DNA of 64,000 bases from Ascochyta rabiei (Eukaryota; Ascomycota; Dothideomycetes; Pleosporales; Didymellaceae), in contig NC_082414.1 in the NCBI RefSeq assembly GCF_004011695.2, positions 1,426,001-1,490,000 of the forward strand, written 5' to 3'. Position numbers and translations under genes: made by a program. This document shows, one piece after another, positions 131 through 22,869 of the stretch (the stretch's first letter is position 1; every line of letters starts with the position of its first letter). The notes beneath the pieces were generated by a model. That model was not told where the DNA came from. It saw only the letters and a list, made by a program, of their open reading frames with translations, and ran no database searches.

Positions 131-1068
131 CTATTGTCCTTGCCGTGTGTCGTTGACATGAGGATTCTGGCCCATCAAACGAGCAATGGTCACCGCTTCT
201 CTCAGCGCCTTTCCGAGATGCCCTCGTACGCCTGCCTCCTCCATCACCATCAGACCGCCAATCGTGCATCCCTCTGGCGATGTTCCTTGATCTTTCAGGA
301 CCCCCGGGTGAATGCCGCTCTGCAGCATCGCAGCTGTGCCCTTCATGCTCTGGTAGATCATAGTTTGCGCAGTTGCTCTAGGCATACCAACGGCGACCGA
401 TGCATCAATCAATGCATCGCAAATGACGGCAAACATGGCTGGTGTTGAACCCCCTACGGCCGTGGAAGCGTTCATCAGCTTAGGATCAATGTGGGCAGTC
501 TTTCCAACTTGGTTGAAGACGGCATCGGTAATTTTCTTAAACTCATTCGGGATGTCCTTGTCTGGATCTTCAATTGCTGTGAGCGATTCAGAAACTTGTG
601 CAGCGATGTTGGGAAGGGTGCGGATAACCCAAACCCTGTCTTTGCTTGATGAAATGAGCTTCTCAATATCCGCTCGCGTCCACCCGGCCGCAAGACTAAT
701 GAGAAGCTTTCCGCTCAGCGAATCGGCGAGACCGTCTTGCTTCAGAGTTTCCTCAACATCGGATGGATCGACGCCGAGGAGGACGACGTCTGAATCCTTT
801 GCAGCTTTGACGTTGTTGCCTCGTGAGATGGAGAGCTTTCCAGACTTGACAGCTTCTGGGTACTTCTCGGCCAGCTTCTTCTCGGAAGCCTCGCTCCGTA
901 CACAGGCAATGTACTTTTCGAACTTCGCATCCTTGTCACTGCCCGACTCGCTGAGCAAGCTGCTCAGGATAGGCTGCCCAAGGTTTCCTATGTGAAATTT
1001 AGCCAAGTCTGCCTAGAGGATATTGTTAACATGCCACAACCCAAGATACAAAGAACTTTCCCGGACAT
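131..1068 (-). CDS. Pyrroline-5-carboxylate reductase
   Basis: NADPH-dependent reduction of 1-pyrroline-5-carboxylate to proline. The predicted protein has 296 residues. The start is the ATG at 1068. A 34-nt first exon encodes the Rossmann strand ending LGCG, then a 47-nt intron (988-1034) with a GC donor joins it to NLGQPILSS, restoring the glycine-rich motif LGCGNLG. No GT donor gives this join in frame. The C-terminal dimerisation domain carries the P5CR signature region (SPEGCTIGGL, then the helix with GVRGHLGKALREA). It lies 423 bp downstream of the proline dehydrogenase stop, on the same strand, and belongs to the imino-acid cluster. P5CR is normally biosynthetic. In this cluster it could recycle P5C, or return 3-hydroxy-P5C to hydroxyproline (inference from known P5CR side activity). 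Confidence 0.93.
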
Positions 1069-1491
1069 TGTTTTCGGCGATGCTTTCGTCCTCGCCGTCC
1101 CAGTTGAGTCTCGGGAAGATGATGCAATTGCGGATGTTCAGGAAGAAACCGTTCACGTCGCGTCTCATAGTCAATCAAAATACATACCGCGAAGTGCCCC
1201 GCTTCGGGTTGCCTCCCGAGTGCAAACTATGTCATGATCCCGTTTAGATAAGAAGAGTTTGACATGCAGAGAAATTGTTCGCGAGACCGACGCTGGCCGT
1301 GTCCCCACTTGAACCCCGCAATGCATCCACACAGCTCCACCGTGTGAATCGGATGATAGGCCCCATCATTCAGATAGATGTCACATTGCTGAAACTTGGA
1401 GATCGTGGGTGGTGTTAAACCTTCATACCTTCGTCTACTTCGTCCCAATGAGTTATCATGAGAAAGACCGTAACATCGCTCATTCGTGAAC
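1069..1491. other. Intergenic, P5CR / PRODH
   Basis: This is the shared 5' region of the P5CR gene and 3' region of the PRODH gene. I see no ORF with family features and no repeat. Confidence 0.5.
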
Positions 1492-2964
1492 TTATGCAGC
1501 GCCAAACATGGATCGCATCCTTCTCCCCGCCTCCCTGCGGAGCGCAACATATTCGTCATTCGTCCTCAAAACGGCGTCCCTGTTCTCAACTGCTCTTCTC
1601 ATTAGGTACCCAATACACTCGCCCATGCTTCCCCATGTAGAGCACTTGAAAACAGCTGGAGGTTGACCGTCGTTACCCTTCTCGGCCAGAAGTGTGAAGC
1701 TAACTTCGTCCGACATGCCGTGAAGTTGAGCAAAGCTGACTGGAACGGTAGGCAAGCCAGCAGCGATCCTTTGCTTGTGTAGTCTTTGCGCAGAGATGAC
1801 AGAGTCGCGGTTGTGAGATGCAAGAAACAACTTAAGTGAGGGGAAGGGGCGAGAAACACCGTATTCACCGAGCTGCTGACGGAGAGCACCCTGGGCAATA
1901 CCGTTGTAGTTGTCGTCTGTGTCTTGCTTTGTATCGTGGATCAAGGCGCGGTCTTCCGAAGCTATATATGCACCACGAACGAGTTTGAGTCCGAGAGTGA
2001 AGCCGTCTTTCTCAGCTTCAGCGAGGTGAGATGCGAGGAGTGCCTGGGTGCCCTTGAGGTAGGCCTGGTACGTGTTGTAGACGACGACACGGCCATCAGT
2101 GTTAAATTTGCGCATCATCTCGAGACTGACGCGATCAATGCCCCTCTGGTAGTGTTGAGACTCTGCGTCGACGATGATCTGGATGTTGCGTTCCTTGCAC
2201 TTGGTGCCGATCTCGTTCAAAGCGTCAAGCATCTGCTGTGGCGGCAAGTCTCCTTTGTTGAAAGCATTAACAACCGCAGGTCCGGCTCCGGAAGTCCTAT
2301 GATGATGTCAGATGGAACCTATTTCGATGTTGTAAGGGTATACTTACTTGATGGCCAAAATATCTCCCTCTTCGATCAAATCGATGGTTCCAACAGTGCC
2401 AGCTCTCCAGGACTCAATAATATTGTCGATCTTAATACCAGCCGCCTCTTCCGCCGCTTCCTCTGCAGCGGATCCGGGGCTGTACCCGTTACCGCTTTTG
2501 TGGTCGAAGACCATCTCTTGTGCATACGTGAGGATAACACCTCGAAACCCAAGGTCTTTCAGTGCCTTGACGCATTTTCTGGTCTCTGCTGGTGTGGTAC
2601 CAGCACAGAATTGATCGTAGAATGATTTCTTGATGATTGCTTTAAGGACTGGGTTCTTGTCGAGATTGAATAGCCAGGTCCTTTCTGGCTTTGCAAAGAA
2701 GTTGAGAATATGAATAGAAGGCACGAGTAGCCACTTCCTGGAGGAAACTGTGGCGACCAGAAGTGATCTCAGAAACATGGGCAGAGGCATAGCTGACAGT
2801 GGTGAAGCTTTTGCCAACAGTCCTGTCTCTGATGTGGGTGGGCTCATTGTCCCTCTCTCCTTTGCTGCATAGGTTGAGGACAGCCTAATGGCTGCGAATG
2901 TAATTCCATCCTTTTTTCCAACGCCCCTCAGCACCGCAGGGGCCCCATATCTAATGTGAAGCAT
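1492..2964 (-). CDS. Proline dehydrogenase (FAD), mitochondrial
   Basis: Oxidises L-proline (and probably hydroxyproline) to the pyrroline-carboxylate at the mitochondrial inner membrane, passing electrons through FAD to quinone. Two exons (2348-2964, 1492-2296) flank a 51-nt intron and give 473 residues. The Met at 2964 starts an Arg-rich, acid-poor N-terminus that fits a mitochondrial presequence. Motifs seen are LKLVRGAY near the middle of exon 2 and the C-terminal YLMRRAVENRDAV, matching the substrate and FAD-binding Arg-Arg-x-x-Glu-Asn signature of the family. The reading frame is intact. Its neighbours are P5CR downstream and a carrier-like gene upstream. Equivalent to prnD/PUT1 by family; orthology is not proven here. 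Confidence 0.95.
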
Positions 2965-3711
2965 ATTACCCTCGCTAAGCTGTAAGACGTAGAGTGTATA
3001 GTGGTAGTATAATGCGTGATTGAGCCCTGAACTTGAATAGAGACAATGCAGTTGTGAGTGAGGAAGCCTTCCTGTGTACACAACGAAAGGTATTATATTG
3101 CCTTATCGCCCACGCCCACACACTGTAATACGATATGTATGCCACGACCCCGCTTCATAGTACGTGATTCGATAACGTGGGTCTTACTCGGCCTCGTGAC
3201 TTCCGCGTCAGAGTACCGTAGGTCGGACGCACTGCCGGCTCGCACCTACTGCCCAGATCCGGTACCGACAATTGCGTAGCTTCTATGCCACAATGCTTAT
3301 CACGCTTTTGGATAATGTGGAAAGCATCATTGTAATCGATACGCACATCGAGCTGCGGCCCAACACATCTTCTGTGTCGAGGAGCGGCGTGCGGGGTGAG
3401 GTGCATCGGATCGGGTTAAGATCTCGGTTTAACATTGCAGGAGCTGATACGCTAAGCCATCCAATTGGTCACAACCACTTATTCGATGCTCGATTGGGTG
3501 GCTTGTTATCATCTCGGCTTATTCTCGTGTTGGATCAAGCGAAGTGAGGCTGCGGTAGAAGATGTATGGAAGAGGCGCAGAAGTTCCTCGATTCAAGCCA
3601 TTGCAGCCACTACAGTAGGCTGGTAAATGTTGAAAAGAACTCTATGGTGATTTCTCCCTTGAGAGTCCATGTCTCATGCTTTCGCGAAGATTGATTTCAG
3701 ACGTTGTGGTT
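2965..3711. other. Intergenic, PRODH promoter side
   Basis: Upstream region of PRODH and 3' side of the carrier-like gene. It holds short ORFs only and I see no recognisable gene. Confidence 0.5.
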
Positions 3712-4671
3712 TCATGCAGCCTTCTTTACGTGCCCGACCTTCTCATCGAAGTACTCCCGTAACCCAGTGTTCGCAACAAGTCCTATACCAAATGCCGGAA
3801 TGATCCTGGCACATCTCACAAGAGTTGTTGCTCCGAGGTTCTGTATAATCCTCGACATTCGCGCCGTGATGTCAGGGTGACTATACATATCTAGACCCAG
3901 GAGGTGGATTGGAGTGGCAAAAACCTGGGAGAAAACGGGCACCAAAAGTTGAATCGTCGCCATCTTCATCATAGGGTTGGTGAATGTGTCTGGCAGTGTT
4001 GATGCAATCATTGGAGGTAAGTTGACCGCCCCGAAGATGGTAATTGCGTCACGAACGAGGAAGGTTCTTGCCACTGTCCTGGGAAATCTCGGTCGCTGAA
4101 CCGGTGGAGACTTCACCCTCGCGGCTTCCGTCTGTGCAGCAACCGGTGTCGATGGTCTGCCAAACATCTGAACGAAATGTACATCTTCCCAGACTCCTAG
4201 TGGTACATTTATGGTAATTGTCAAAAGAAAGGTGATCGATTGCACCAGGAGCTCGTCAGCTCTCCGAGTTGAGTGGCGGGCTGTGGTTTCGACAATGTTT
4301 GCTGTCGTGTATGTCGCTGCATATAATATCCAGATGATGAAGAACGGTTTTGTGCCAAAGAAACGCCTAGGATGTCGGAATGAACAGAGAATGTTGGTTC
4401 TCGACGCCTGAGCAAGTGGGTTTTGGCCTGATCTAGCAGCATTTTCAACGACTGCGCTGAACATTGTCATTATATGCCTTCACATGACCTCACCTGACTC
4501 CGGTGGGATCACTTACCGGTCAATCGCTGTAAGAACAAGTGACAACAACGTCGCGCTCATAGTTGCAGCACGTAGATCTCCAACCAGCTGTCCTGGAAGC
4601 GTACTTCCTTTCCAACATCCCCATTCGAAATTTGGTCGTTCATGAGAAACTTGCTGAGTCATCGAAGACAT
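3712..4671 (-). CDS. Mitochondrial carrier-like (SLC25-like) membrane protein
   Basis: Predicted protein of 299 residues from two exons (4517-4671, 3712-4456) separated by a 60-nt GT-AG intron. The first exon (MSSMTQQVSHERPNFEWGCW...) ends in a helix DLRAATMSATLLSLVLTAID that joins in frame to RAVVENAARSGQNP. Hydrophobic segments follow at KPFFIIWILYAATYTTANIV, at LLVQSITFLLTITINVPLGV and in the second half (TLVRCARIIPAFGIGLVANTG). The pattern resembles a fungal family annotated as mitochondrial-carrier-like. I could not find clear PX[DE]XX[KR] signatures, so transport activity is unproven. It lies inside the proline/hydroxyproline cluster next to mitochondrial PRODH. A role moving proline or pathway intermediates across the inner membrane is inference from position. 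Confidence 0.72.
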
Positions 4672-5224
4672 GAAGCTGTAGCGGGAAACGTCGTGATGGT
4701 TGCTAATTCGGCCTTCATGAATCCACGACGTCTGGCTTGAACGTCAACGTGCACAATCTTGCTGAGTCTTTAGACCGAGTCGCGTCAACAATACCGAACG
4801 CCGGCCTCAACTGCGCTTTGCATCGCATTACTTTACCTTTCCGGACCCATGATCGCACCTTCTGGCCATCGTAACCCAGGCCTCGGTAATACATGGTCAA
4901 GATCTGTGGGGTACTGGTGTCGGTTTCGCGCCCGTGATGTTCACGGTATGCCTGCCGGTGGTGTGTAGCAGGTGTGTAGTGCTGCGGCTGCGGGGCAACG
5001 ACGCATCGCCCTTCACGCTAACGCATGCGGAGCTTATCGATAGCGAGTCTTCCGGTAGTCTCACGCAGTTCTATGCGAGTGGAAGGAAAGAGTCGCAGGG
5101 TTCGGAATTGGCTACCGTTGATTACGGGAGTGTTAAAATGTGAGAGTCCCTTGAGTAGAGGACGATCAGGTACCTCCTCGCTCTTAGTTGGTCGCCTTTG
5201 AATCTTACCAACAAAATTGTCACG
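4672..5224. promoter_or_regulatory. Divergent promoter region, carrier-like gene / FAD oxidase
   Basis: About 550 bp between two divergently transcribed cluster genes, so it should hold control elements for both. It contains several CCGG tetranucleotides (about 4797, 4839, 4953 and 5050). CCGG half-sites are the core of known proline-regulator (PrnA-type) binding sites, but I see no well-spaced pair, so this is only suggestive. Confidence 0.4.
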
Positions 5225-6582
5225 ATGAGCATCTCAAAGAACGAACACATTGCGATTGTCGGTGGCGGGGCTTTTGGGCTGTCGACTGCTTTCGAGCTGT
5301 CGCAGCAGGGCTATACAGACATTACGGTCTTTGAAAAGGATGGAGAGATTCCTTCAAGATGGTCGGCCGCAAACGATCTGAACAAGATCATGCGCGCTGA
5401 GTACGAAGACCCATGGTACACAGAACTCGGTGTCGTAAGTAGTCCGCTCTTCTGGGTCAGTTGATAGTACTGATTCGTCTTCAGGAAGCCGCAAAGAAAT
5501 GGCAAACAGCCCTTTACGCACCCTACTTCCATCGAGTCGGCTATCTCAACTGTGTGTCCGGCGCTGGCACACAAAAAGCCATCAACTCAATGAATTCATT
5601 CAAAGCTGCAGGCGAGGCACATCCAGATATCAAACCCTGGGTCTCTAGTGTATCGACCCGCCAGGAGCTTCAAGATATTTGCTGGCAATTTAACCAGGGC
5701 GAGATGCCAGGGTGGAAGGGCTACTTCAACCGTTACGACGGCTACGTCCACTCTGCTAACGCTCTCCGTGGTATTTACCGTGCTGCAAGATCGAACGGTG
5801 TACGATTCTTCCTCGGCGAGAAGAGGGGAGCCATCCAGGAGATCGTCTACCAGGGCAGTGGCGCGAACGGGAAGAGCGTCGGCGTCAAGACCAAAGATGG
5901 ACAGTTCCACGCTGCCTCGCTCGTCATCGTCGCCACTGGTGCGGCAGCCTCAAAGATCGTTCCAGAAATTGGCGCTCGCGTCTCTGCGAAGTCATGGTCC
6001 GTTGCACACATCCGTCTTACAGACGAAGAGACCGCAGCGCTGCGCGGTATTCCCGTCACATATGCGCGCGATCTTGGATTCTTCTTCGAGCCTGACCCGA
6101 AGACCAACCTCCTCAAGCTCTGCCCCATGGGCGGTGGTTTTATCAATACCAACCCCGCGACTGGTGTCTCTGAAGCACCCGAGGATGTCCAGCGCTTTGT
6201 ACCTCCCGAGGATGAGCGCAAGATGCGCGAACTCCTCCGCCAAACTCTGCCTTACCTTGCCGATCGGCCACTTGTCGAGAAAACATTATGTTGGTTTGCT
6301 GACACCAACGATTCTGAATTCATCATTGACTATCTACCCAAGACTGGCGGGTCAGTCATAGTCCTGTCTGGTGACTCTGGTCACGGTTTCAAGATGTTCC
6401 CAATTGTCGGTTCGTGGGTGAACAACCTTCTCAATGCTCCCGAGGGCAAGCAAAAAGAAAAGAGGTGGCAGTGGAGGACAAACCAGCCTAACGATGGTAC
6501 TGCGAGACAAGACGATGTGAGTTGGCGCGTTGGTGACGTCCAAGAGCTGAGGGACATTACACCGAATGTTTCAAAATTTTAA
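5225..6582 (+). CDS. FAD-dependent amine/imino-acid oxidase (sarcosine/pipecolate/fructosyl-amine oxidase type)
   Basis: Two exons (5225-5434, 5485-6582) with a 50-nt intron encode 435 residues. The N-terminus has the FAD Rossmann motif IAIVGGGAFGLSTAFELS followed by the acidic strand end ITVFEKD. The C-terminal half has KTLCWFADTNDSEFIID, where the Cys sits at the covalent-FAD position of the monomeric sarcosine oxidase family, then the flavin-binding loop SGDSGHGFKMFP. The substrate cannot be read from sequence; relatives oxidise sarcosine, pipecolate, fructosyl amines or similar secondary amines. The last three residues are Ser-Lys-Phe, close to a peroxisomal PTS1, as expected for an H2O2-producing oxidase. 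It is transcribed divergently from the carrier-like gene within the imino-acid cluster, which favours an imino-acid substrate (inference). Confidence 0.88.
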
Positions 6583-6907
6583 TCATTTAGCATGATTAAA
6601 GTATAGATCTGAGTAATGCATTTGGCTCATCTTTAACCTCAACCTCGATGTTGCCCTCATGTTGAAGCAACCACGCTCGACTTATGGACCAAAGGTATGC
6701 CGCCAAGCCTCCCGCGCGGATAGGTTCTGATAGCAAAACAACATGCGGTAGTCACGTTGGTAGTCGCAAAATAGACCACGATGAGAGCCGTCTGAATGCA
6801 GGATCGAGTACGTAGATATCAAAAGTTTCAGGCCTTGCGCCAAACCCCATATATATGTCTCTAGGTCGTTATACCGTCCGTGCATGTATCGTGCGCCTCG
6901 TTACTCC
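6583..6907. other. Convergent intergenic region
   Basis: 3' ends of the FAD oxidase and the Zn2Cys6 regulator face each other here. I see no gene. Confidence 0.5.
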
Positions 6908-9313
6908 TTACTGCATCTGTGGGTCCACCATCTCCAAAGGTTGGTAGTTGTCGAGAACGCCAAAAGAAAGCCAATCAGTCCCTTCAATATCCATAGACTC
7001 GGCAACAGCCAGAATCTGCTCGGCCGTGAGATCGTCACCAAAGCCACTGCCCTCGTCGCTGAACCCTGAGTACAGGGGACCCCCATCTGGTGAGGCAAAC
7101 ATTTGTTTTGCGCTAGAGGATTCATCACGTATTCCTGAACCGGTCTGGTTCATGTTTGTGTTGAGTTGAGCGAGCTGCTGCTGGTTGAACGCCTCCATCG
7201 TTGGTGGTCGCTCCTGCATTGCTGCATATTCTACTAGCATCTCCTCAAGCCTGCGCAGCTCGTGCATCCGGTAATCCGCGATGCGGTTGCCGCCAGCTAT
7301 CATGGTTTCCATCAGCGAAAACGCTGTGTCCAGCCAAAGGGTTCGGTCGTCGAGCAGGCTCGGGTCAACGAAACGAGTTACGATGAGGACCATGGTCGAT
7401 ACGAAAAGGGCGTCCAGGTCCCACGGAAGAAATGTTTCTGGACACGGTAAGTTTCGTTCAGACACACAGGAGGGGTGGCGCTTACCCAGTAGACCCTGAT
7501 CCTGAAGGCTTTCGAGTATCACCAGAATTTTCTGTGATGCTTCTAGGGCCACGTGCAGTACCTTTCGAATTTTGGGTGAAGAGATCAAAGGCACTACCTG
7601 CTGTGGTGATTCGAAGACCTTCTTCATGCAGCAGAACAACAACGGTCTAGTGACAACAACGATGGTCTGGAGCAGTTAGCTACCTTATACTTTATGAAGG
7701 AACGACAATACTAACCTGGTAATAGTATAAATGAGAATGCGCCGGTAGTCTAGAAATGCCGCCAAAACGTTCGTCAGCATGCAAGGGAAATGAAGTGCGG
7801 AGCTCTTCTGCTAGTCCAGCTAGGTTGTCAAGCACCGTCTTGATGCTTAGTACGAATTTTTTGCGAAGCCTGCCTTTGGAGCCATACACAGTATTGGCAA
7901 TATCAGTATGAATTTTGGCAAGCTTGATCTGCATATTCAGTGCAGCTGCTCGCTGAGGTGAGTTTTGGTAGTTAGGTAGTTGACAGGATACGTCTTCGTC
8001 ACGGATCGATTGCGGCAGCCCCATCAAAGAGGTCATGTGACGGTCTAGAATGAAGATGGTCCACCAGATCTTGCGACAGCGCTGGACAACAACGTCGCCC
8101 AGATTCATCACTGGCATGTCTGTGTGCATTCCTTGTATAAGAGCAATCCGCATAGCTTGGCCGATCGTGACGTGTGCAGCATTGCGGGAGTCAAGCGCTT
8201 GCAGGTACAGCGCAATGCAGCACAGCACCTCCGTCGCTACGATGGGGTCCCGGCAGAGCTTGTTCGTATCTGGAAGAAGCTGCAAGGCGTATGTGAACAA
8301 GTCCGCACCAGGCGGTCTTGGTGAACGGTTCTTCTGCTGAACGAACGTCTTACCAAAAGCTATAATGAGCAGGAAGTGGATGTACCAGAGGCTCTCATTC
8401 CAGATAGCTTTGTCACCTATGCTTGTGTAGAAAGCATGTAGGTTGGACATGAACTCGTCTTCTTCGAAGAGATGCATCATCTGCGCGCAGTGGAATTTGA
8501 CTGCGTTGATCAGGAAGATAGCGTGGTCTATGCTTGGGATTACGGGGGAAGCAGATTCGGGTAAGCTGCGAGTACCGTCCCAGAGGAGATTGTACGCGGA
8601 TCCGTCGAACAGTAGGTCTGCAGCTGGAAGAGGCGACTTGTGCATGTGTTCGTGCACCAGGCTCAGGACTTGTCCGTGAAAAGACCAGTTGGACGAGGTA
8701 CCCATGTAGACTGAAGGGTGCGTTAGTACTGTGGAGTAATCTGGAAGATATAGGAAGACCTACAAGTCTGTCCGTTAGAAGCTGCCATGTATCTAGAAGG
8801 TGTCTCAGTAAGAGGGTTTGTCAGATTTGCAGTCTCGCGTGGGCCATCTGTCCCTGGTGTGCTCTCTCGAGTGCCTCCGCCGCTGGGCTGAGCTGACCGC
8901 CTTGGTGTCTCACCAGGAGAAAGACTCCTCTCTGCCCGTGCCCGGGCATCTCGATCCTCTTCTAGCAACGGATTGATAGCAGAGGATGCATTGCTTGCGT
9001 TCTGAAGTTGTGCTACCTTGGCCTGGAGGTCGGAGAGGTAGCTACATTGTTGGTTAGAGAAGTCGCTTATGGCAAGGCTATGGATGACAAACCCTTGGGT
9101 TACCAAAACCTTGTTGTCTCGATCATCGAAAATACAGGTCAAATTTCGCTTGCCGCAGTTCGCACAAGGCTGCTGGCCGGAGCACTTGATCTTCTGCCTT
9201 CGACATCTGGAGCAGCTATAGCAAAATTAGCAAGGCCAAGACCACCATCAATCAGCAGCATACGCGTTCGACGATCTCTTTGTTACTCGTCTGTGCTCAT
9301 TCGAGGTAGCCAT
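6908..9313 (-). CDS. Zn2Cys6 transcription factor of the imino-acid cluster
   Basis: Six exons (9264-9313, 9093-9215, 8764-9041, 7716-8710, 7486-7666, 6908-7437) with five introns of 48-53 nt give 718 residues. Cys18, 21, 28, 34, 37 and 44 form a perfect C-x2-C-x6-C-x5-C-x2-C-x6-C binuclear zinc cluster, split after codon 16 by intron 1. A linker and short coiled coil follow (YLSDLQAKVAQLQN), then a Fungal_trans middle domain (RCRKIWWTIFILDRHMTSLMGLP). The C-terminus is acidic and Gln-rich, as in activators. It lies between the oxidase and the aminotransferase, so it is the likely pathway-specific activator, functionally comparable with PrnA of Aspergillus. Binding specificity is not shown by the sequence. 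All exons are intact. Confidence 0.92.
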
Positions 9314-9992
9314 TACAGCAGATGTCTGTCATTCTGCAGCATTCCTTAGAGAGAAACTCGGACATCGTCAGGCGGGGCGCCGATAACGCCGATAAGGCTC
9401 CGCCTACTCCGAAGCAAAATTGGTGTCAACAGCGCAATGAGACTCGAGTCGGAGTGGTTTTCTGGTCCCGTCTATGTGCGGGGAACGCTGGGGTTCAAGT
9501 GACGTCTTTGGTAACAAAGGCTTGGCGGTTTTTTATTCCCTTTAGGTACGCACCACCAAGCACCGACGTCTCCATTAAGAACAAGAGATCCCCAGGTCAG
9601 CGAAATCTCATCAGAACCTCAAATCCTTCCAGAAGCTTTCGAGTAAGATAGCCCTGCATCGCTATCGCTTTCGACTAAAGCCTAGCGCCAGACTATGGTA
9701 AATTCTGGCCTTTCACCTAGTATCAGCGACTTCGCACCCGTCGATGTTATACAACACACGCGCTTCGACTCGCATTGAGAGCCGCAGTAAATTTGCTAAA
9801 GCACTGGATCTTACTTTCTATTTAGATCACGAGATGCGCGCGACAGTATGCGACAGTATGCGGCATAAAAGGATACGGAAGCTGACCCGAGATCGACGGC
9901 TTCCCTTCCGATCCAGCTTACGCCCAGCCTGCACCACGGCATCACATGCACATTGATAAGACAATTCACTATCAACTCGGTCCTTCTGCAGC
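9314..9992. other. Intergenic, regulator promoter side
   Basis: Upstream region of the regulator and 3' side of the aminotransferase pseudogene. No gene recognised. Confidence 0.5.
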
Positions 9993-11265
9993 TTACAATC
10001 GCGATGGAGGTGCGCCGTGGACCACCTCATCGATGGCCTGTGCAATCCTCTCAATATTTGACTGGTTCATGGCCAAAACGTTGATACGTCCACTCAGGAG
10101 CATGTAGATATGGTGCTTGCTGCCAAGCGCCTCGCACTGTTGTGGGCTCAAAGGAAGGAAGTAGAAGAGACCGGTTGATTTGAGGATGGCGTTCCAGTTA
10201 CCGGGTGTCTGTACGTTGTCAGTGGTTGGACACGGATGAAGGCTGCGATGGGAAGCTCACCTTTTGCTTATTGGTCAGTAAGTTGTACAATGTCCTCCTG
10301 AGACCGACCAATCGCTCTCGCATCACTACCAGCTCGTTTTATCACTGTGATGTGAGATCGCCATCCTTGAGAACAGTGTTCACCAGCCTCGATCCGTACG
10401 CTGGACTGGACGAGAACTCTCACATGACCAAGCATCTCAGCTGGTCGTATACGTTGGCTGCAACAGTACTCTTCTCTGTGAGAATATGCATTACACCGCA
10501 CCTCTCGCCATACAGTCCGAAATCTTTCGAGAACGATTGGCAAGCGAGCAATTCAAAATATTGCTCTGTGAAGTGCCTCAGACCGAATGCATCTTCCGCC
10601 AGTGGCGCACCGAGCCCCTGATATGCCATGTCGAAGAAGGGGAAATGACCCTTGGGCTTCATAGCCCGCTCAAGTGTTCGCCATTGCTCCTTGCTCAAAT
10701 CTGCGCCCGAGGGATTGTGGCAGCACCCCTGGAGGACAAATATGCTGCCACTGGGAGCTCTCTCGACGGCACTGAGGTCGCCGAATGCGACAGTGCCTCG
10801 CCCCGCATCGTAATGTCGGTACTTAACGACTTCGAATCCAACAAGGTTGAACAGGGGCTCGTAGCTCCCCCACGCTGGGGTTCAAAAGTAGACCTTCTTT
10901 CCTTTGAACTCCCTGGCGCGGCTCAGAAACAGAGCAGCAAGATGAATGCTTCCAGTACCCGAGATATCTTGAGCAGACGCAATGCGGCCGGTCCTCACAG
11001 GCTCGGATTCTGCGCTGAACAGGACTTTGCATGCGTTGTTGACGAATTCGTCATCTCCCGTTGTGACTTCGTAGTCGTGACCTAGTTCCGCCTTTGTGAG
11101 AATCTCCTTCGCCTGCTTCATTACGCCGAGCTCGTTGTATTTACCCTCCTTATTCCGGTATACGCCAACGCCGAGATCGATTCTCGAGGGCGATTTGTCG
11201 GCTTTTACTTTGGAGCTGAGGATGAAGACTGGGTCCGCTGGGCCCATGGGAACGGAGCGGAACAT
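9993..11265 (-). pseudogene. Aspartate aminotransferase, cytosolic type, with four in-frame stops
   Basis: Class I PLP aminotransferase, 407 codons across two exons (10261-11265, 9993-10208; 52-nt intron). Homology is continuous in one frame: MFRSVPMGPADPV, the SGTGSIHLAA loop, GCCHNPSGAD (cofactor Asn), FFDMAYQG (Asp and Tyr), the Schiff-base Lys in SFSKDFGLYGER, and the substrate-binding Arg in LLSGRINVLAMN. The frame is interrupted by TGA at 10882-10884 (codon 128, a Ser position just before TPAWGSYEP), TGA at 10420-10422 (codon 282), and TGA-TAA at 10339-10344 (codons 308-309, about where a Trp is expected). No GT-AG intron can remove them. In the hydroxyproline pathway this enzyme would convert 4-hydroxyglutamate to 4-hydroxy-2-oxoglutarate. 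The rest of the gene is remarkably well preserved, so inactivation looks recent. Confidence 0.88.
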
Positions 11266-11767
11266 GGCTGCTGATTTCTGAGATGCGAGGTCTGACCGAA
11301 GTTGGATCAAAGGCTTTGCTTGCGTTCTGCAATACTTCCCTGCAGTCTATATCGTCGCACGTGCCGTCTTCGGTCGTCTGGTTTGACACGCGACCGTGCT
11401 GCACAGCGCGTCCACACGACCGGTACCGCTCCTGAGAGTGTTCCCGACAGTAGAGATCGCACCGAGTTACGCTAGCATTGACCGTGTATACCCGCACTTG
11501 GAGCCGGTGCACTTCTCGTTTCGTGGTTGATCAAGTTCTAGCACTGTCCAGGCGCGCTCGCGTCGTAGGCGGCCTGTGGGGAAGGGAGACCATCGCGACC
11601 ACAGTGGAACAAAATTGCGGGAAATCACTTCTCATTCTCTGTAAAACTATCTATACAAAGTTTTAGAGCGAATACTGGGCTTCCAGACGACCTCCCCCTC
11701 ACGACACAGTCCAAGCCAGGTACATCCGTCGACCTTGAAACCGGCGTTTCGCCATCGAATGCTTCGT
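11266..11767. other. Intergenic, aminotransferase / permease
   Basis: 5' region of the aminotransferase pseudogene and 3' region of the permease. No gene recognised. Confidence 0.5.
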
Positions 11768-13678
11768 CTAGGCGTATTCGCTGTCCTTCTTGCGACCTTT
11801 CATACCGCACATGAGCATCTCAAGAATCTCCTGCCAAAAGCCCTTGGCTTCCTCAGCGAACGAAGCCTCGTACGCATCGATGTATGCCTTCTCCCAGACC
11901 AAATCAGCCTCATGCGGCTCAACCATCTTTGTGCGCTTGAGGAGTTTCCAGCCGAAGAACAGCACGGGAGCGATGAAAACCATCATATAGTATGTGAAGA
12001 GGCCAACCACGGTGAAGTTGCCGGGAAGGAAAGTACCATATCCGTAGCAACCAAGAACGAGGATCAAGAAGATCATGCTGATCCATGTGCCGTAGGGCTG
12101 GAAGTATCCGTAGTAAGGCATAGCCTTGCGATCAACGCCCTGGGCTTTGACAGCACGGTAGAAGAAGAGGTATGTGATGCAGATAACGATGTAGTTGATG
12201 ATCTGAGCACCGGTGATGATGTTGGTGAACCAGGTAAGCACCTTTGCCGATCCAGCGTTGACGTTCAGGAAGCCGAGGAAGGGGAAGCAGATGGTGACAA
12301 GCAGGCAATAGAACGGGACACCCTTCTTTGTACACTTCTTCAGGAATTTCGGCGCCTGGCCTTCAAGGGCAAGACCGTACAGCGAACGGGTTCCGTAGTA
12401 AGTGTAAGCGTTTCCGGCGGAGAAGATGGACGTGCACAGAAGGGCGTTGGTCAAGTGGGGAAGACCGCTGACTCCCAGGTTTCTATTCGACAGTTAGTAG
12501 GAGCGGAGTGATGCTGGGGAATATATAAGTACTTCATAGCGATAACATAGGGTGAGGCAGCGGCAGTACCGGCACCACCGGCCGCGCCAGACATGATCTC
12601 CAGGAGAGTCGAATCGTTGTAGGGGATGACGATACCAACGCAAAGCGCACTACCGATGAAGAAGAAAGCAAAACGAGCGTATGTGACCTTATAGGCGTTC
12701 TTGAGGTACGTCCGGGGAAGCTTGACCTCTCCAGAAAGCATGGACAAATACTCAGGACCGACAACGGTGAAGGCAGCGCTCCACAGGCAGCCGAGAAAAC
12801 CCTCGAATCGACCAAGCTCACCGGTGGTATTATACTCGGCAAAAGTACCAGGGTTTTTCCAATAGCGAAAGCCGTAGGCGTCTTTCCTTGGGTTTCCGCC
12901 GACCATAGTGATGAAGGTGAAGGAGAAGACGATCAAGATGAGAAGCACCTTTCCAAGAGCAAGCCAGAACTCAGCCTCTCCGTACGCCTTTACAACGAAC
13001 GCGTTGATGGCACTGTAGGCACAGTAAGCTACTGCTTTGGCACACGCACTCCTATCAAGAAGAGCCAGGAGGCATTCAGGGGGTGGGGTGGGGTGACTTA
13101 CAAGTACAAGACGATACAGACGGCGACAACTGCGGCGACTGGAATGTCGTCGCTCCAGAATTTGAGTACCAGGTTCAACGCGCTGATTTCGAAGGGGATG
13201 AGAATTGCCTTGTAAGAAATGTTAGCGGCAAAGCAACATTGGTACCGTGTGGCACTACCTCGTAAAGGAAAAAGTTCCAGCCAGCCCAAAACCCCATAGC
13301 TGGGTCAACCCAATGGCCTGCCATGCGGATGAAGCCACCAGTGACGGGCATGAAAGACGACATCTCTGCCATGGCGTTGTTGACAAGACCAAGCATACAT
13401 GTGTAGATGGCGTAGGCGAGGAACAGACTTCCGGGTCCGCCTTTGACCAGTCCACTGGCAATTGAGACGAAGGTGGCAGTTCCAATCGAACCGCCAATGG
13501 CGATCAACTGGACCTGACGGTTACCCAAGTGTCTTTGCAGCTGGTCGGCATTGTCGACATGGCCCTGGACGACGCTGTGCTCGGTCTGGATACGGTAGAT
13601 GCCCCCGTCCTTGGCTCGGACATCTGATAAGGCCTTGGCAGACTTCTCGTTGACCTCGTAGGCCTTGCTGTCAGCCAT
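11768..13678 (-). CDS. YAT-family amino-acid permease, probable proline permease
   Basis: Plasma-membrane proton symporter of the APC superfamily, fungal YAT family. Four exons (13259-13678, 13102-13208, 12533-13012, 11768-12482) give 573 residues. The second intron is 89 nt; splicing at cctacag yields LYFAINAFVVKAYGEAEFW, the family's conserved segment. The cytosolic N-terminus leads into LGNRQVQLIAIGGSIGTA, the consensus first membrane helix that binds the amino-acid carboxylate and amino groups. Later hallmarks are VVGPEYLSMLSGE and NALLCTSIFSAGNAYTYYG. About 12 membrane segments are visible. It lies in the imino-acid cluster, where the Aspergillus prn cluster has PrnB, so proline or hydroxyproline is the likely substrate (inference). 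The reading frame is intact. Confidence 0.93.
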
Positions 13679-14379
13679 CCTGTCCGCACGTGACAGCTAT
13701 GTCAAGATACAATGAAGCGTGGCGGAGTGAAATGAAACGGTGAAGGCGATGGGTCCGGGAGGTGGCTCATGGGTGGATGGGCTGCCCTAATAAAAACCAG
13801 GGTGAAGGTCAAGATCACGGTCGCCCTGTAATCCTGCTGTGATGGGATAGTGTTGATATCGCTGGCACAACCAATCAAGGGAATTTGGGCTACGAAGCGT
13901 GGACCCTGCGAATCTCGCCCATACCACCGGCCTGGGTTAGGTGTCTCTGGGTGTCTGTCACGTCTAGAGGACTTTGGGGATAGCCGAGCGTGGCGAGTGG
14001 GCCAGACACAGGGATCTTTCTGGGGTAAGCACTCGATTCGCGTCTCCACATGCAGACCAACGTAGGAGTCAGCCAAGGGTCTGCCATGGACATGCCAAGG
14101 GTCAGCCAGCACTCTCGTGCCACGCCACGGAACCGTCACTGTCGCTCTCATACATCTTCGGTTCTCGTGCCGGATCCTATCTGAGTCTAGCCTCCCACGT
14201 GTAAATAAGCCACAGCATTTTGACTGCGCCCAGGCTTGAGGTTGCGATCACTCGGTATCCGCGCGGAAATGCAATAAGGTATCAAAGCTGCCAAGATGGT
14301 GGAAGCGCGAAGGTAAAGGAATGCAATTGCTGAACTGATGATTATCTATGACCCACCCAGACTCGACAACATCGTGCTA
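13679..14379. other. Permease promoter region
   Basis: Upstream region of the permease and 3' side of the aldolase pseudogene. It contains a short direct repeat of gccaagggtc (about 14076 and 14094) spaced roughly two helical turns apart, which could be a regulator site. No gene recognised. Confidence 0.4.
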
Positions 14380-15504
14380 TCATATCCTTGGAGAGATAGG
14401 CCTGTTGATCAGAGGCAGGCTCTGTTCAATCCTCCCAACCTCTGCTGTCTTCGACTTGACCATGTCTCGGACGGCAGTGGCTGGCGCAACGTAGGGCCTA
14501 TGCGGTGCCATCTTGGCGGGTGCGTCCTGAATACCGGCATAGGCAGCGCTGTGTATCGCCGCAGCGTACTTTGTAGGCGCAATGCCGCCCTTGATAGCGT
14601 GCTCGGCCAGTGCAGTCTTCTGGTGCAGGGCCAGAGCCTCTGCGTGCTTGCTCTGGTGATAGAGCTCGTTGATGCGAACGATGCATCGAGGAGCAACATT
14701 GGCAAAAGCAGCGATGCAGCCAGACGAGCCTGAGCTCAGACCACCGACGATGAAGTCTGCCTGGCCTCCAAAGACGGCGAACTTCTCTTTGGGCTGTGCA
14801 GCTGCGAGGCGCGTGGTTTTGGCTACGGAGCCGCACGTCAGCTTCACGCCCACGGCGTTGCTGTGGCGCTTGGCCATGGCTTCGATGAAGTCTGAAGAAA
14901 GATCGACGCCATTGCACACGCCGGGGAAGTTGTAGATGACGATAGGCAACTCGCTGCGAGCCGCAGCCTGGCCGTAGAAGCTGTCCAGAACCTGAGGTGT
15001 GGTAGCGCCACCTTTGAGACCAGGCTAGTCGCTGCTTCTTTGCAACTCAGATAATTGGTTGCTACATACCAAAGTAACAGCAAGCCAGAACGAGGACGGA
15101 GTCGGCTGCAGCCGTAGCGGCGTCAGATATGAACTCCAGCGTCTGTGCGGTGCTGTGCAACCCCACACCCGCCATGATGGGAAACGAAGGCCTACGGCTC
15201 GCCGCGCGGTCGCGGTCAACGCTTTGTGCTCCTCCCGCGTAAGCAGCATAGCCTCTGCACTTGTACCCAGAACCACAAGGCCTGCGAGCCCTGTGGTAGA
15301 GAGGTAGTGGAAGTAGCGTGCCTGGTTCTCAAAATCGACTTTGTCTGTCTTTGGGTCGAAGAGAGTAACGGCAGGGCACCAGACACCAGCCGGAAGAACT
15401 GGAGAATGAACCCAGAGGGATATGGACGGGTATAGCGATGCTACTTGCAGTCTACTTGAGCCTCTTCGCGCAGTATTTATTGTACTCTCATAAGCCTCTC
15501 GCAT
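14380..15504 (-). pseudogene. DapA-family aldolase (4-hydroxy-2-oxoglutarate aldolase type), frameshifted
   Basis: Schiff-base class I aldolase of the dihydrodipicolinate synthase family; in this setting a candidate for splitting 4-hydroxy-2-oxoglutarate into pyruvate and glyoxylate. Two exons (15070-15504, 14380-15011) with a 58-nt intron. N-terminal homology LPAGVWCPAVTLFDP through LTATARRAVG is in one frame. From FPIMAGVGLHSTAQTLEF onward it is in another, so one base is missing near 15190-15200. Exon lengths sum to 1067 nt; adding one base gives 356 whole codons. The catalytic residues still exist as sequence: Tyr in IVIYNFPGV and Lys in AVGVKLTCG. No intron explains the shift. The in-frame ATG at 15504 is the best start but the N-terminus is uncertain. 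A sequencing error cannot be excluded for a single base. Confidence 0.82.
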
Positions 15505-15788
15505 TGCTGGCCGTTGCTGCTTCGACTCAACCTTTGGTATACTCGGGCTGGCACCCGAATGAGACCTTTGACGATATCGGCAATCCAAACAACGCTTTCA
15601 GCAAACGTAACCTGTGTCTATCACGCGGCAATCAACGGCTAAGCCAGAGTTCGTGAACGGGATGCGAACCGGTCCTTTATGGAGCTTCTCCACCAGACCC
15701 CTCATTGTGCATACTCAAAAGGCAGAGGCCCAGCATTGAGAGACCGAGCAGCCTCAAACCTTCGAGTCCTCTCACAAAAGTCCTCAAT
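15505..15788. promoter_or_regulatory. Divergent promoter, aldolase / P5C dehydrogenase
   Basis: A 284-bp gap between two divergently transcribed cluster genes, so a shared control region. One CCGG lies at about 15671. Confidence 0.45.
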
Positions 15789-17615
15789 ATGTCGAGCATT
15801 CGCACCATCACATCTCTCCGTACCACACGGCGGCCCTTGATCAAGGCGCCTCGCCTTGCTTGCCTCCAGGCTCGCACCAACGTCACAGTACCCTTCAGGT
15901 TACCTGCTGCACGCAACGAGCCCAACCCTACTTACAAGGAAGGCTCAGAAGAGCGCACCGAGCTTGTCAAGGTGCTCAAGAGACTCAGATCTCAGCTTCC
16001 TCTCAAGTCTGAAATCTTCCTCAACGGCACATCTCAGCCCGCTGCTGAATCTTGGGATCAGCCCATCCCCGCAGAGAAGGACACCGTCTTCACAAACTAC
16101 CCTCTCATCTCCAAGGAGCAGGCCTCAGATGCCATCACATCAGCTCTGGAGGCCAAGAAGATATGGGAGAAAACTCTCTTTGTCGACCGTGCTTCCATTT
16201 TCCTAAAGGCTGCGGAGCTTGTTGCGGGGAAATACCGTTATGAGCTCATTGCTGCAACCATGCTCGGCCAGGGCAAGAACATCTGGCAGGGCGAAGTGGA
16301 CGCCGCTGCTGAGCTGGCTGACTTCTTCCGTCTCAACTGCAACTATGCTGCTGAGATTTTGTCTCGCCAGCCCGATCGTGGTTCGGACGGCATGTGGTCC
16401 CGCATGGACTACCGCCCGGTTGAGGGTTTCGTCTACGCTGTTTCTCCCTTCAACTTCACAGCCATCGGCGGTAACCTAATTGCTGGGCCTGCTCTGATGG
16501 GTAACGTCGTTCTCTGGAAGCCATCTCCATCCAACATCTACGCTTCCACCCTTGTCTACAAGATCTTACTGGAGGCTGGTCTCCCCAAGGACGTCATCCA
16601 GTTCATTCCTGGTGACCCAGAGGTCATCAACGATGTCGTTTTCGCCCACCGCGACTTTGCTGGTATCAACTTTGTTGGTTCCTCGGATGTTTTCCGCTCG
16701 CTCTGTGCTCGCATTGGTGAGGGAATTGGCAAAGGCACGTACCGCGAGTTCCCACGCATGGTCGGTGAGACCAGCGGTAAGAACTTTACTCTCATCCACC
16801 CAACTGGCGATATTCCTTCTGCCGTAAAGCACACGATCCGCGGCTCTTTCGAGTACCAGGGACAGAAGTGCTCTGCCACCTCCCGTCTCTACCTCCCCGA
16901 GTCCCGTTCCAAGGAATTCCTCGACGCTTTCGTCAAGGATGTCAACGAGATCACCATCGGTAACCCCGACAAGGATCTCTCTGCATTCATGGGCCCTGTC
17001 ATCCACGACCGCTCTTTCAACAAGATCAAGAAGATCATTGACGAATCCAATGCCGATCCCTCGCTCAAGTGCATTGCTGGTGGAACCTACGACGACTCCA
17101 AGGGCTACTTTGTCAAGCCTACAGTCTATCTTTCCGACTCCCCTGACCACAAGCTTTTCAACTACGAGATCTTTGGTCCTGTCCTTGCTATCCACGTCTA
17201 CAAGGACGCTGACTGGAAGGACATCCTCCAGAAGGTTGACCAGGCCGGTGGCGGCTTCGCCCTGACAGGCTCCGTTTTCGCCAACGACCGCTCTGCTATC
17301 CGCGAAGCCGAGGACACTCTCCGCTACTCCGCCGGCAATTTCTACATCAGTAAGCCTCTCCCATCCACTCTCACATGTAACAAATCGCTGACCAAAATCC
17401 CAGACTGCAAGACAACAGCCGCCCTTATCGGGCAGCAATCTTTCGGCGGCTCCCGCGCCTCAGGCACAAACGACAAAGCCGGCTCCTCCAATCCTGTCCT
17501 CCGCTTCACCTCCCCTCGCCTTATCAAGGAGGAGTTCTTCCCCCAGACCGAGTTCTTGTATCCCAGCAACAAGCCGGCCGAGAACCGCGAGGACGTCAAG
17601 GGCGCCCAGCACTAA
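15789..17615 (+). CDS. 1-Pyrroline-5-carboxylate dehydrogenase, mitochondrial (ALDH4 family)
   Basis: NAD-dependent oxidation of glutamate semialdehyde (from P5C) to glutamate, and of the 4-hydroxy analogue to 4-hydroxyglutamate. Two exons (15789-17349, 17404-17615) with a 54-nt intron give 590 residues. The chosen ATG begins MSSIRTITSLRTTRRPLIK, an Arg/Ser/Thr-rich mitochondrial presequence; an upstream in-frame ATG at 15705 is possible. Motifs are VSPFNFTAIGGNL (NAD-site strand), the general-base Glu in MVGETSGKNF, the catalytic Cys in EYQGQKCSATSR and EIFGPVLAIHVY. It ends SYKGAQH-like with no obvious sorting tail (observed ending VKGAQH). The frame is intact. It closes the cluster, corresponding by family to prnC/PUT2. 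Confidence 0.95.
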   Translation: MSSIRTITSLRTTRRPLIKAPRLACLQARTNVTVPFRLPAARNEPNPTYKEGSEERTELVKVLKRLRSQLPLKSEIFLNGTSQPAAESWDQPIPAEKDTVFTNYPLISKEQASDAITSALEAKKIWEKTLFVDRASIFLKAAELVAGKYRYELIAATMLGQGKNIWQGEVDAAAELADFFRLNCNYAAEILSRQPDRGSDGMWSRMDYRPVEGFVYAVSPFNFTAIGGNLIAGPALMGNVVLWKPSPSNIYASTLVYKILLEAGLPKDVIQFIPGDPEVINDVVFAHRDFAGINFVGSSDVFRSLCARIGEGIGKGTYREFPRMVGETSGKNFTLIHPTGDIPSAVKHTIRGSFEYQGQKCSATSRLYLPESRSKEFLDAFVKDVNEITIGNPDKDLSAFMGPVIHDRSFNKIKKIIDESNADPSLKCIAGGTYDDSKGYFVKPTVYLSDSPDHKLFNYEIFGPVLAIHVYKDADWKDILQKVDQAGGGFALTGSVFANDRSAIREAEDTLRYSAGNFYISKPLPSTLTCNKSLTKIPDCKTTAALIGQQSFGGSRASGTNDKAGSSNPVLRFTSPRLIKEEFFPQTEFLYPSNKPAENREDVKGAQH

Positions 17616-20098: not shown

Positions 20099-22869
20099 TT
20101 AAAAGCCTGCCGCGAGCATGAGCCCGTAGCCTACAGTGATGATAACAACAAAGGTAACAATTGAGGCAGGAACACCACGGGTGAGAAAGTGCTTGACCTC
20201 GAGGTAGCGTTGTCCAGTCCGCTGGTCCTCCATCATGATGGCAGCTACGACACGTTAGATCAAGTTTGATCATCGAAAATGGTGCGAGGACTTACTCATA
20301 TTCGGGAAGCCGCTCGTAGGTAGACCCATAGCCCCACTTGCCATGAGGACGGCGCCCATGACGAGAAGGTTGGGGTGCGGCTCCGACATGCTCTGGCCAA
20401 CCTGCTGCACAAGCGGGAGCACAATGAGCGCCGCGACAGTGTGACTGATGAAAGTCGCGATGACCAGGATCAGACCGCAGAAGACAACGAGTACTCCATA
20501 CAGGCTCATGCCTTCGACGCTGCTGGTGATGGACTCGGCAATAGTGTGCAACAGACCGGACGAGTTGACGGATTTGCCGAGCGCCAAACCACCGGCAGCG
20601 AGGATGATGATGGTCCACAAGAAGTTGTTGAAGTCCTCCTTTGTAAGTATGCCAGTGCCAAAGAACAGCACAAGTGGTATGATGGCCACAACGCCCATGT
20701 CGCCAAAAATTTCCTCCAGCTGATGGCTTACACACCAAAGAATGATGGTTACGACCGTGACGATGCTGATAAACCACTGAACGCCTGTAAATTTGTCCTT
20801 CATGGGTCGGATAGGTACGATTGTAGTGCCTTTGCCTGGCTGGAAGGTAAGAACGAGCAGACCCCAGATCAGAAGGATGGAAATGATGCACACAGGCAAC
20901 GCGACAAAGAACCAGAGGCCCCATGACGGTTCAGGGTTCATGTTCTGAAGCGCGATGAGGTTCTGCGGTGAGGCAATCGGGGATGCAGCGCCACCAATGT
21001 TGGATGCTAGGGCAATACCGAGGAGCAGTGCCTTTGTCATGTTGGAGTCGGCTGGAAGGTTGCGAAGAATAGGCTGACCTGTTAGTATGATTGCGATAGA
21101 CTTGGGGCTAGTAGCATACCTGGATAATGGAAAAGCACAGTACAGGTGCGGCGACATTGCTGATCCACATGCTAGCGAACATGGCGACGAACATGTTCGT
21201 GAGGAGAACCGTCCTTGGCTTTGTCCCGGCCTTACTCAGAACAAAGGTAGCCATCATCTTTGCAATGTTGTACTTTGAGAGGGCGGCTGCGATTGTGAAT
21301 CCTCCAAGAAGGAGCATGATGACTGGTGTCCACATGGCCGCAAACACGTAGCCAGCTGCCGCCTTGGAGCCCAGTCGTTTGTGCGGTTCAACATCGCTCC
21401 GTACAACGTCGAGGGTTACTGCCAGGAACGGTACGAGGAGTGATGTGACGAAGAGTGGAATAGCCTGTGAATGTTAGCATAGGGCAAGCATACAGGAGTT
21501 GTTGCGTACCTCAGTTGCCCACAACGCGCTGACGAAGATGACCATAGCTAAGCAGTTCTGCTGCTCTGGCTTCTCCATGATGGGAACCACCAACAATACG
21601 ACAAACACTGCTATACATGCCACCAGGGTCCAGAATGTCTTGCTGATGAGCCATTGGGGGCACCTGTATCTCCCTATAGGCGTGACCACCTCTTTGATCT
21701 CAGAGGCGTTCTCATCTCCCTGGCGTCGTACTCGCCCTGCATTGACGTCGCGGCCGAGCAGAGTCTGTGTGATGCCAATGTTCGCAGCTTGTGCTTTCCT
21801 CTCGATGCCGATCATCTCCCTCCAGACTGTGTTGCGCTCCCATACTACATGTTCTCGCAGGTGCAGCCTCAGCTCGCGTTTCGCCTCTGCAACATTGCCC
21901 TTGGTGCAGATCTGCGAGTAGGCGTGCTCAACGTGCTCCAACTTCTGCGTCAACTTGTCCATTGTGCTCTGCTGGAACGGGTATGCGGGGTAAACGTATT
22001 GGTTGAGGTACTGGCTCTTGAGCTTGCGGTCCAGAATCTTGTCGAACTTCTTCAAGACCTTCTCGAAACCGGTCTTGTTCAGTTGGATGAACGACCGCAG
22101 TTCGCAGAGAGAGACGTATACGCTGACGGTGCGCTTCTTCAAGGATACACCCTCGTCGTATAGTGCGGAAAATGCCATGTCATTGTAGTCATCAAAGGCC
22201 ACGCTTGTTCTGCGCTTCGAGGAGAGACCATCAGAATTGTTGTTCTCGTCTGTTGTGCGTCGTCGCCGACGCTGGCCGTCAGGGCTTTTCTGCCGCAGCC
22301 TTGACGTCTCGTTTGCGTCGACGTCTGAGTCGTCGTCGTCGTCATCGTCGTGTCCGTCGCCGGTTGATCGCCCGCTCACTGTGCTCGTTGCGCGCGGTCG
22401 GTTGAAGCCAATCTGCTTGAACACGCTAGTGCTGCGTGTCTGCTTCCCGGGCGGCGCATTCTGCTGCTCTTGGTCGAGTTCTTCTTGGCCACGCTCATAG
22501 CCTGCCTCATCGTTGATCAGAGCATCCAGCTCTCCGTAGATCTCGGCCTCCTTCAGCTGGTAGAAGGAAGTGACCTTCTCCAGCTCAGCATCGAGCAGAT
22601 TGGTGAAGGCCTTGTCTGGGTCATCTGCGGCGCCGTTCAGCAGCGGCGACGACTCGGCATCAGTGGCCGCAGTGTTTTTCTGGTTGATTTGTGTTTCAAG
22701 ACTGTAGATCCTACACAGCGCATTGCTCGTCAGCCTCCTCACCGCCAGGAAACACGCTCCCCAGCTCCGTCACCGGCAAGACGTACTGCTTCTTCAGGTT
22801 GCTGTAGGCGACGTAGTGGTTGCTCCAGTCCGGCACCGCGTTGAACTGCAGGCTGTGGGAGAACTTCAT
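20099..22869 (-). CDS. SPX-domain low-affinity phosphate transporter (PHO87/90/91 type)
   Basis: Five exons (22787-22869, 21510-22710, 21120-21464, 20296-21073, 20099-20244) give 850 residues. Exon 1 starts the SPX domain (MKFSHSLQFNAVPDWSNHYV, then YSNLKKQIYSLE after a 76-nt intron). The domain continues through ELRSFIQLNKTGFEKVLKKFDK, whose Lys residues form the inositol-pyrophosphate pocket in SPX proteins. A long acidic and basic low-complexity insert (about residues 140-220) interrupts it. The C-terminal half is a divalent-anion:sodium-symporter-type membrane domain with about 12 helices, including ASNIGGAASPIASPQN and ASGAMGLPTSGFPNM, the paired re-entrant motifs. Function: phosphate uptake, or vacuolar export if PHO91-like, gated by SPX. 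The frame is intact. Confidence 0.93.

Follow-up and report, generated by a model that had tools for sequence, protein, structure and literature searches.

A prn-like gene cluster in Ascochyta rabiei with a probable hydroxyproline-directed branch that appears to be decaying

In animals, trans-4-hydroxyproline is degraded by PRODH2, ALDH4A1, GOT2, and HOGA1, so that a Delta1-pyrroline-5-carboxylate dehydrogenase (P5CDH), an aspartate aminotransferase (AspAT), and a pyruvate-releasing aldolase act after a proline dehydrogenase (PRODH). The same four enzyme families occur together in a nine-gene block of Ascochyta rabiei, a chickpea pathogen of the Didymellaceae that causes chickpea blight. The block occupies positions 131-17615 of the window, the whole 64,000-nucleotide stretch analyzed here (C10:1426001-1490000 in a 40.9 Mb genome of 23 contigs). 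The aldolase step of the animal pathway is treated in the available text of PMC3188589. A tight cluster that shares PRODH, P5CDH, a YAT-type permease, and a Zn2Cys6 activator with this block is the prn cluster of Aspergillus nidulans (prnA, prnX, prnD, prnB, and prnC), as described in the available text of PMC5983819. Compared with prn, the A. rabiei block adds a Delta1-pyrroline-5-carboxylate reductase (P5CR), an AspAT, an aldolase, a flavin adenine dinucleotide (FAD)-dependent oxidase, and a protein with a mitochondrial carrier fold.

We assign a probability of roughly 0.6 to the reading that the nine genes form a catabolic cluster in which a single Zn2Cys6 activator governs the breakdown of proline-type amino acids, trans-4-hydroxyproline being the likeliest, and in which a dedicated branch is decaying in A. 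rabiei. The cluster would probably represent a parallel set of genes, partly conserved among related fungi, that forms a hydroxyproline-directed extension of a prn-like cluster. The nine gene identities in the original prediction were confirmed at about the same coordinates by Pfam (P5CR_dimer, Pro_dh, DAO, Zn_clus/Fungal_trans, Aminotran_1_2, AA_permease, DHDPS, and Aldedh) and NCBIfam (TIGR01236 and TIGR00112), with the carrier-like call made through the fold of a relative. Its view of the block as prn-like genes supplemented by AspAT and a DapA-family aldolase also agreed with the gene families and with gene linkage in other Pezizomycotina. Its "full animal-type pathway", in contrast, is not supported for this genome: the cluster has P5CDH (TIGR01236), but its AspAT and its 4-hydroxy-2-oxoglutarate (HOG)-aldolase-like gene are both broken.

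The AspAT gene (9993-11265, minus strand; Aminotran_1_2), which is of a distinct fungal type and intact in relatives such as P0202, carries four in-frame stops at 10882-10884, 10420-10422, 10342-10344, and 10339-10341 (three TGA and one TAA in a separate count). In an alignment of 25 relatives chosen from 120 among the matches listed, the columns of the first three stops hold a single residue in 25/25, 24/25, and 24/24 non-gap rows, respectively, and the fourth column is variable. A GT-AG intron spanning the first stop, suggested by an automatic model, was rejected since it would delete a stretch conserved in relatives. In a leave-one-out comparison, the broken AspAT departs at 5 of 84 invariant columns, and relatives depart at up to 6 of 92. 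The three-exon aldolase gene (14380-15504, minus strand; PF00701 on both pieces) shifts frame by one base within 15179-15198, where there is no space for an intron and where relatives P0082 and P0083 are uninterrupted. A second break, suspected at the exon 2/3 junction, was discarded since the two exons are in frame once a 58-base intron (15012-15069) is removed, the arrangement seen in P0082. The aldolase motif reads TSAE in A. rabiei. Among the 120 relatives listed, it is TNAE in 98 of the 99 with a readable motif and SNAE in one; 20 of the 21 sequences unmatched by the pattern are at most 270 residues long. Because two enzyme genes of the cluster are broken, the hydroxyproline branch is probably being lost in A. 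rabiei, whereas the reading frames of the proline-type front end remain open.

The original prediction proposed a synteny search in other Pezizomycotina, and our check, which covered the carrier, AspAT, and aldolase genes, found that AspAT and the aldolase stay together there, often with the carrier gene. We compared 81 carrier matches with the best 120 of 1653 aldolase matches and the best 120 of 6304 AspAT matches, taking contigs of identical size as the same contig. Among these matches, carrier and aldolase shared 7 contigs, carrier and AspAT 14, aldolase and AspAT 18, and all three genes 7, giving 25 contigs with at least two of the genes. In a control allowing contig sizes 1-50 bases apart, 18, 6, and 7 pairs were obtained, 28/31 of them on contigs below 10 kb; the exact matches were all above 15 kb. 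Because seven exact shared contigs are shorter than 100 kb (15.3, 17.5, 20.5, 30.3, 51.3, 62.5, and 67.3 kb), the genes are close to one another on them. Locus tags of a Kalmusia sp. (001802 aldolase, 001804 AspAT, 001808 carrier) follow the order of the window with one extra tag, and AspAT and aldolase tags lie six apart in two species outside Pleosporales, Diaporthe australafricana (005418/005424) and D. amygdali (013182/013176). Linkage of AspAT and aldolase, often with the carrier gene, is thus beyond chance in other Pezizomycotina. In a record from Fusarium oxysporum f. sp. vasinfectum (P0285), a cluster-type AspAT is predicted to be fused to an unrelated HpcH/HpaI aldolase. This is either a real fusion or a merging of neighbors, and even a merged model would place a different kind of aldolase beside AspAT, which would fit a 4-hydroxy-2-oxo acid as the product of AspAT.

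Shared regulation of the cluster is suggested by its promoters. The Zn2Cys6 regulator (6908-9313, minus strand; PF00172 and PF04082) is intact on a hand-joined model and has PUT3 as its closest solved structure (1ajy, E 1.7e-4). The palindrome CGG-N8-CCG occurs once upstream of P5CR (1205-1218), PRODH (3224-3237), and the permease (14159-14172), and twice between the divergent carrier and FAD-oxidase genes (4921 and 4944; 4921-4957), upstream of the regulator (9876 and 9897; 9876-9910), and between the divergent aldolase and P5CDH genes (15544 and 15658; 15544-15671). These nine sites fall in seven intergenic regions (3886 bases) for which 1.02 would be expected from the rest of the window; two further stretches, the convergent FAD oxidase-regulator gap and the sequence following P5CDH, were excluded and contain 0 sites. 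Six of the seven regions hold the palindrome, the exception being that upstream of the broken AspAT. It stands out in a scan of 63 arrangements of CGG half-sites differing in spacer and orientation: simulated promoters average 0.97 sites, 0/2000 reach nine, and the best of all 63 patterns reaches nine in 3/500 simulations (about 0.006 corrected). Elsewhere, the palindrome is found three times inside cluster genes, 12 times in the remaining 45.5 kb of the window, and 7175 times genome-wide. The 900 bases preceding each of the dispersed PRODH, P5CDH, and P5CR genes described below hold none. The Put3-type CGG-N10-CCG is not enriched, with one copy in the cluster, inside a gene, and the three PrnA site types described in the available text of PMC5983819, CCGG-N-CCGG and CCGG-N6/7-CCGG, each have 0 copies in the 64 kb window. 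On present sequence evidence, the single Zn2Cys6 activator probably binds the CGG-N8-CCG palindromes.

In the proposed pathway, the permease would import the amino acid, and PRODH and P5CDH would oxidize it in the mitochondrial matrix, hydroxyproline to 4-hydroxyglutamate and proline to glutamate. The specialized AspAT and the DapA-family aldolase would then act in the cytosol, converting 4-hydroxyglutamate to 4-hydroxy-2-oxoglutarate and the latter to pyruvate and glyoxylate, with P5CR and the FAD oxidase in side roles. The basic/acidic counts of the first 35 residues are 6/1 for PRODH and 7/0 for P5CDH, against 5/3 for AspAT and 2/4 for an intact relative's aldolase. This is a crude hint that PRODH and P5CDH may begin with mitochondrial targeting sequences and that AspAT and the aldolase may not, so that the pathway would cross the inner membrane. 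A pathway split over two compartments would need a carrier, and the carrier-fold protein may move the substrate in, or 4-hydroxyglutamate out, across that membrane. In A. rabiei, the genes for the last two dedicated steps are broken, and the carrier lacks an otherwise conserved Lys. We infer that hydroxyproline is the substrate and that it could be drawn from plant cell walls or collagen.

Further copies of the cluster enzymes are dispersed in the genome. P5CR is found again on C22, PRODH on C4 (by eye, no such cluster within its 10 kb surroundings), and P5CDH on C2, the last 53% identical to the cluster copy. A carrier homologue (40%) lies on C21 (C21:1090670-1091777; L037, L038), with simple repeats between its two matched parts. 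An aldolase of the same subfamily on C17 (C17:1334134 onward; L052:5135) has an open frame and 58-62% identity to relative P0083, with one CGG-N8-CCG lying 226 bases upstream; this copy could stand in for the broken cluster aldolase. AspATs on C21 and C10 match relative P0202 at 41% and 32%, with introns read through. The existence of these copies indicates that the cluster is a parallel set, which would be odd for plain proline use. In addition, an intact proline-racemase-family gene (PF05544) on C11 (C11:423648-424625; L025:1378-2499) suggests that some hydroxyproline or proline isomer chemistry may occur outside the cluster.

Several observations weigh against the hydroxyproline reading or limit it. 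Activity of human HOGA requires Lys196 and Tyr168 and is modulated by Ser77, Asn78, and Ser198, according to the available text of PMC3188589. The aldolase of relative P0083 keeps the equivalents of Lys196, Tyr168, and Asn78, but Ser77 and Ser198 align with Thr. The active-site Asn and Thr features are also common to other A. rabiei DapA paralogues, and are therefore compatible with a HOG aldolase without being diagnostic. PutA Tyr540 enforces proline (available text of PMC3718742, citing Ostrander 2009), and the cluster PRODH agrees with PutA at 10/12 inspected positions and differs at 291 and 540. At the latter it seems to have Phe422 (MAFFT) or Cys424 (ungapped count), not Tyr either way in an ambiguous alignment. 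The intact C17 aldolase and the other AspATs might replace the broken copies, which makes the loss of function putative, and the C11 racemase-family gene makes a D-hydroxyproline route possible. Two palindromes persist in front of the broken aldolase, but this region also lies upstream of the intact P5CDH. Finally, co-occurrence on a megabase contig shows one contig only and is weak evidence when taken alone.

The cluster might instead be an ordinary prn-type proline cluster, in which AspAT would merely pass on glutamate's amino group and the aldolase would be a passenger unrelated to the pathway. PRODH, P5CDH, the permease, and the regulator correspond to the A. nidulans prn set in the available text of PMC5983819, the regulator is closest to PUT3 among solved structures, and AspAT and the aldolase seem dispensable, both being broken in A. 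rabiei. We nevertheless consider this rather unlikely, since AspAT and aldolase share 18 contigs among the listed matches, including two of Diaporthe, and since dispersed P5CR, PRODH, and P5CDH exist. Of the P5CDH copies, the dispersed one is closer than the cluster one to 4oe4 (627 versus 486 bits and 511 versus 441 chain residues, the cluster query being cut at the last intron), which we take to be yeast Put2. The breaks themselves could be assembly errors in a cluster that is complete and working in this strain, as a shift of just one base accounts for the aldolase break and one assembly was read directly. Four separate AspAT stops in an otherwise open frame, three of them at strongly conserved positions, and the deviant TSAE make this improbable. 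Moreover, the 120 listed matches to AspAT and the 120 to the aldolase include no nearly identical sequence from A. rabiei other than the window's own aldolase fragment P0084, while the A. rabiei carrier protein is listed among the carrier matches; this agrees with broken genes, although absence from a list is weak evidence.

The deaminase of the bacterial trans-4-hydroxyproline route is DapA-like, and a comparable route could be imagined in which the C11 racemase-family protein epimerizes the substrate, the FAD oxidase oxidizes the D form, and the DapA-family protein acts as a deaminase giving 2-oxoglutarate semialdehyde. The C11 frame seems to hold both catalytic-type cysteines of the motif, and bacteria convert trans-4-hydroxyproline to 2-oxoglutarate by four enzymes (available text of PMC5144071). 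However, this route would leave AspAT, PRODH, and P5CDH without a role, the FAD protein is closest to fructosyl-amine oxidases and then to sarcosine oxidase, and the racemase gene lies on another contig with 0 CGG-N8-CCG within 5 kb upstream, rendering the scenario very improbable. The bacterial Lhp set (epimerase, D-hydroxyproline dehydrogenase, deaminase, and semialdehyde dehydrogenase) was not found together, racemase-family matches occurring only on other contigs. If the hydroxyproline reading is true, fungi possess a dedicated hydroxyproline cluster, and its dedicated branch has been caught mid-decay in one plant pathogen. Among the matches listed in a search of the open-access literature, no description of a dedicated fungal hydroxyproline cluster was found.

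The carrier-fold gene (3712-4671, minus strand) has an open frame of about 299 aa with an intron at 4457-4516. Its homologues were searched with a form lacking the first exon, which was later found by eye, and this query equals ST47_g10052 of Ascochyta rabiei (100% identity over 98% of the query). The protein had no Pfam match, PF00153 was absent from the families listed for 39 family members, and the family profile had no match among solved structures. The structural model of a relative is predicted to fold like mitochondrial carriers, with six helices in three repeats. The 81 homologues found belong to Ascomycota and Mucoromycota. A KD pair is present in 74/81 matches; A. rabiei (P0001) has ED, a Lys-to-Glu change, and six were unmatched by the pattern, one of which is also KD. 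In leave-one-out counts against 16 relatives, the A. rabiei protein deviates at 4 of 79 invariant columns, and two of the relatives deviate at more (5 of 83 and 8 of 87). With a closer set of 16, it shows the most deviations, 7 of 122, the highest count for a relative being 5 of 128. These counts are a weak sign of possibly relaxed constraint. Proline was stated to enter mitochondria "via an unknown transporter" in the available text of a 2020 yeast Put6/Put7 paper (PMC7519068). It is tempting, though doubtful, to view this orphan family as the mitochondrial carrier for proline, hydroxyproline, or 4-hydroxyglutamate, with the cluster copy being a paralogue beside the P5CR, PRODH, and P5CDH paralogues. 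A carrier-fold gene beside proline-pathway genes is a concrete, testable candidate for mitochondrial proline transport, and this is the family with the most to gain.

The remaining cluster genes have open frames. P5CR (131-1068, minus strand; PF14748, and TIGR00112 above cut-off) is intact if exon 1 (ATG at 1068) is joined through a GC-AG intron, both read by eye. PRODH (1492-2964, minus strand; PF01619) is intact in a spliced model and had no match among solved structures. The FAD oxidase (5225-6582, plus strand; DAO) is intact and of the fructosyl-amine oxidase/monomeric sarcosine oxidase type. The YAT-type permease (11768-13678, minus strand; PF00324) is intact and aligns to positions 1-477 of 480 of TIGR00913 with a score under the cut-off. 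P5CDH (15789-17615, plus strand; TIGR01236, 665 bits, above cut-off) is intact, with 4oe4 as its best solved match. Upstream of the block lie a zinc alcohol dehydrogenase and further open frames, and downstream lies an SGL-domain protein. Elsewhere in the window, adjoining SPX-domain and CitMHS/Na_sulph_symp frames (20273-22769, minus strand) are probably one phosphate transporter gene, a signal peptide peptidase (PF04258; 43075-45052, plus strand) spans two open frames that are probably exons, and a C/D-box snoRNA Afu_514 (RF01515, 64.8 bits) was found at 63732-63836 on the plus strand.

Individual proteins can also be set beside described ones. The closest solved structure to the FAD oxidase is 3djd, a fructosyl amine:oxygen oxidoreductase that is presumably Amadoriase II (202 bits over residues 1-399 of 435), followed by sarcosine oxidase; this is a family match, but the oxidase here stands in a proline-type cluster. 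The cluster aldolase belongs to the same subfamily as 3qfe, a putative DHDPS-family protein, presumably from Coccidioides immitis, whose entry names no function and which scores 438 bits to relative P0083. The carrier protein shares the predicted six-helix, three-repeat fold of SLC25 but has no PF00153 match, about 10% identity, and a mostly absent signature, with a partial fit to the Px[DE]xx[KR] signature in repeat 2 only (alignment of 39, by eye). With regard to gene order, prnD and prnB are divergent neighbors with a common promoter, whereas here PRODH and the permease both lie on the minus strand with four genes between them. Relative to the animal pathway, the A. rabiei genes are clustered and probably jointly regulated, and their AspAT and aldolase appear to lack mitochondrial-type N-termini and are both broken.

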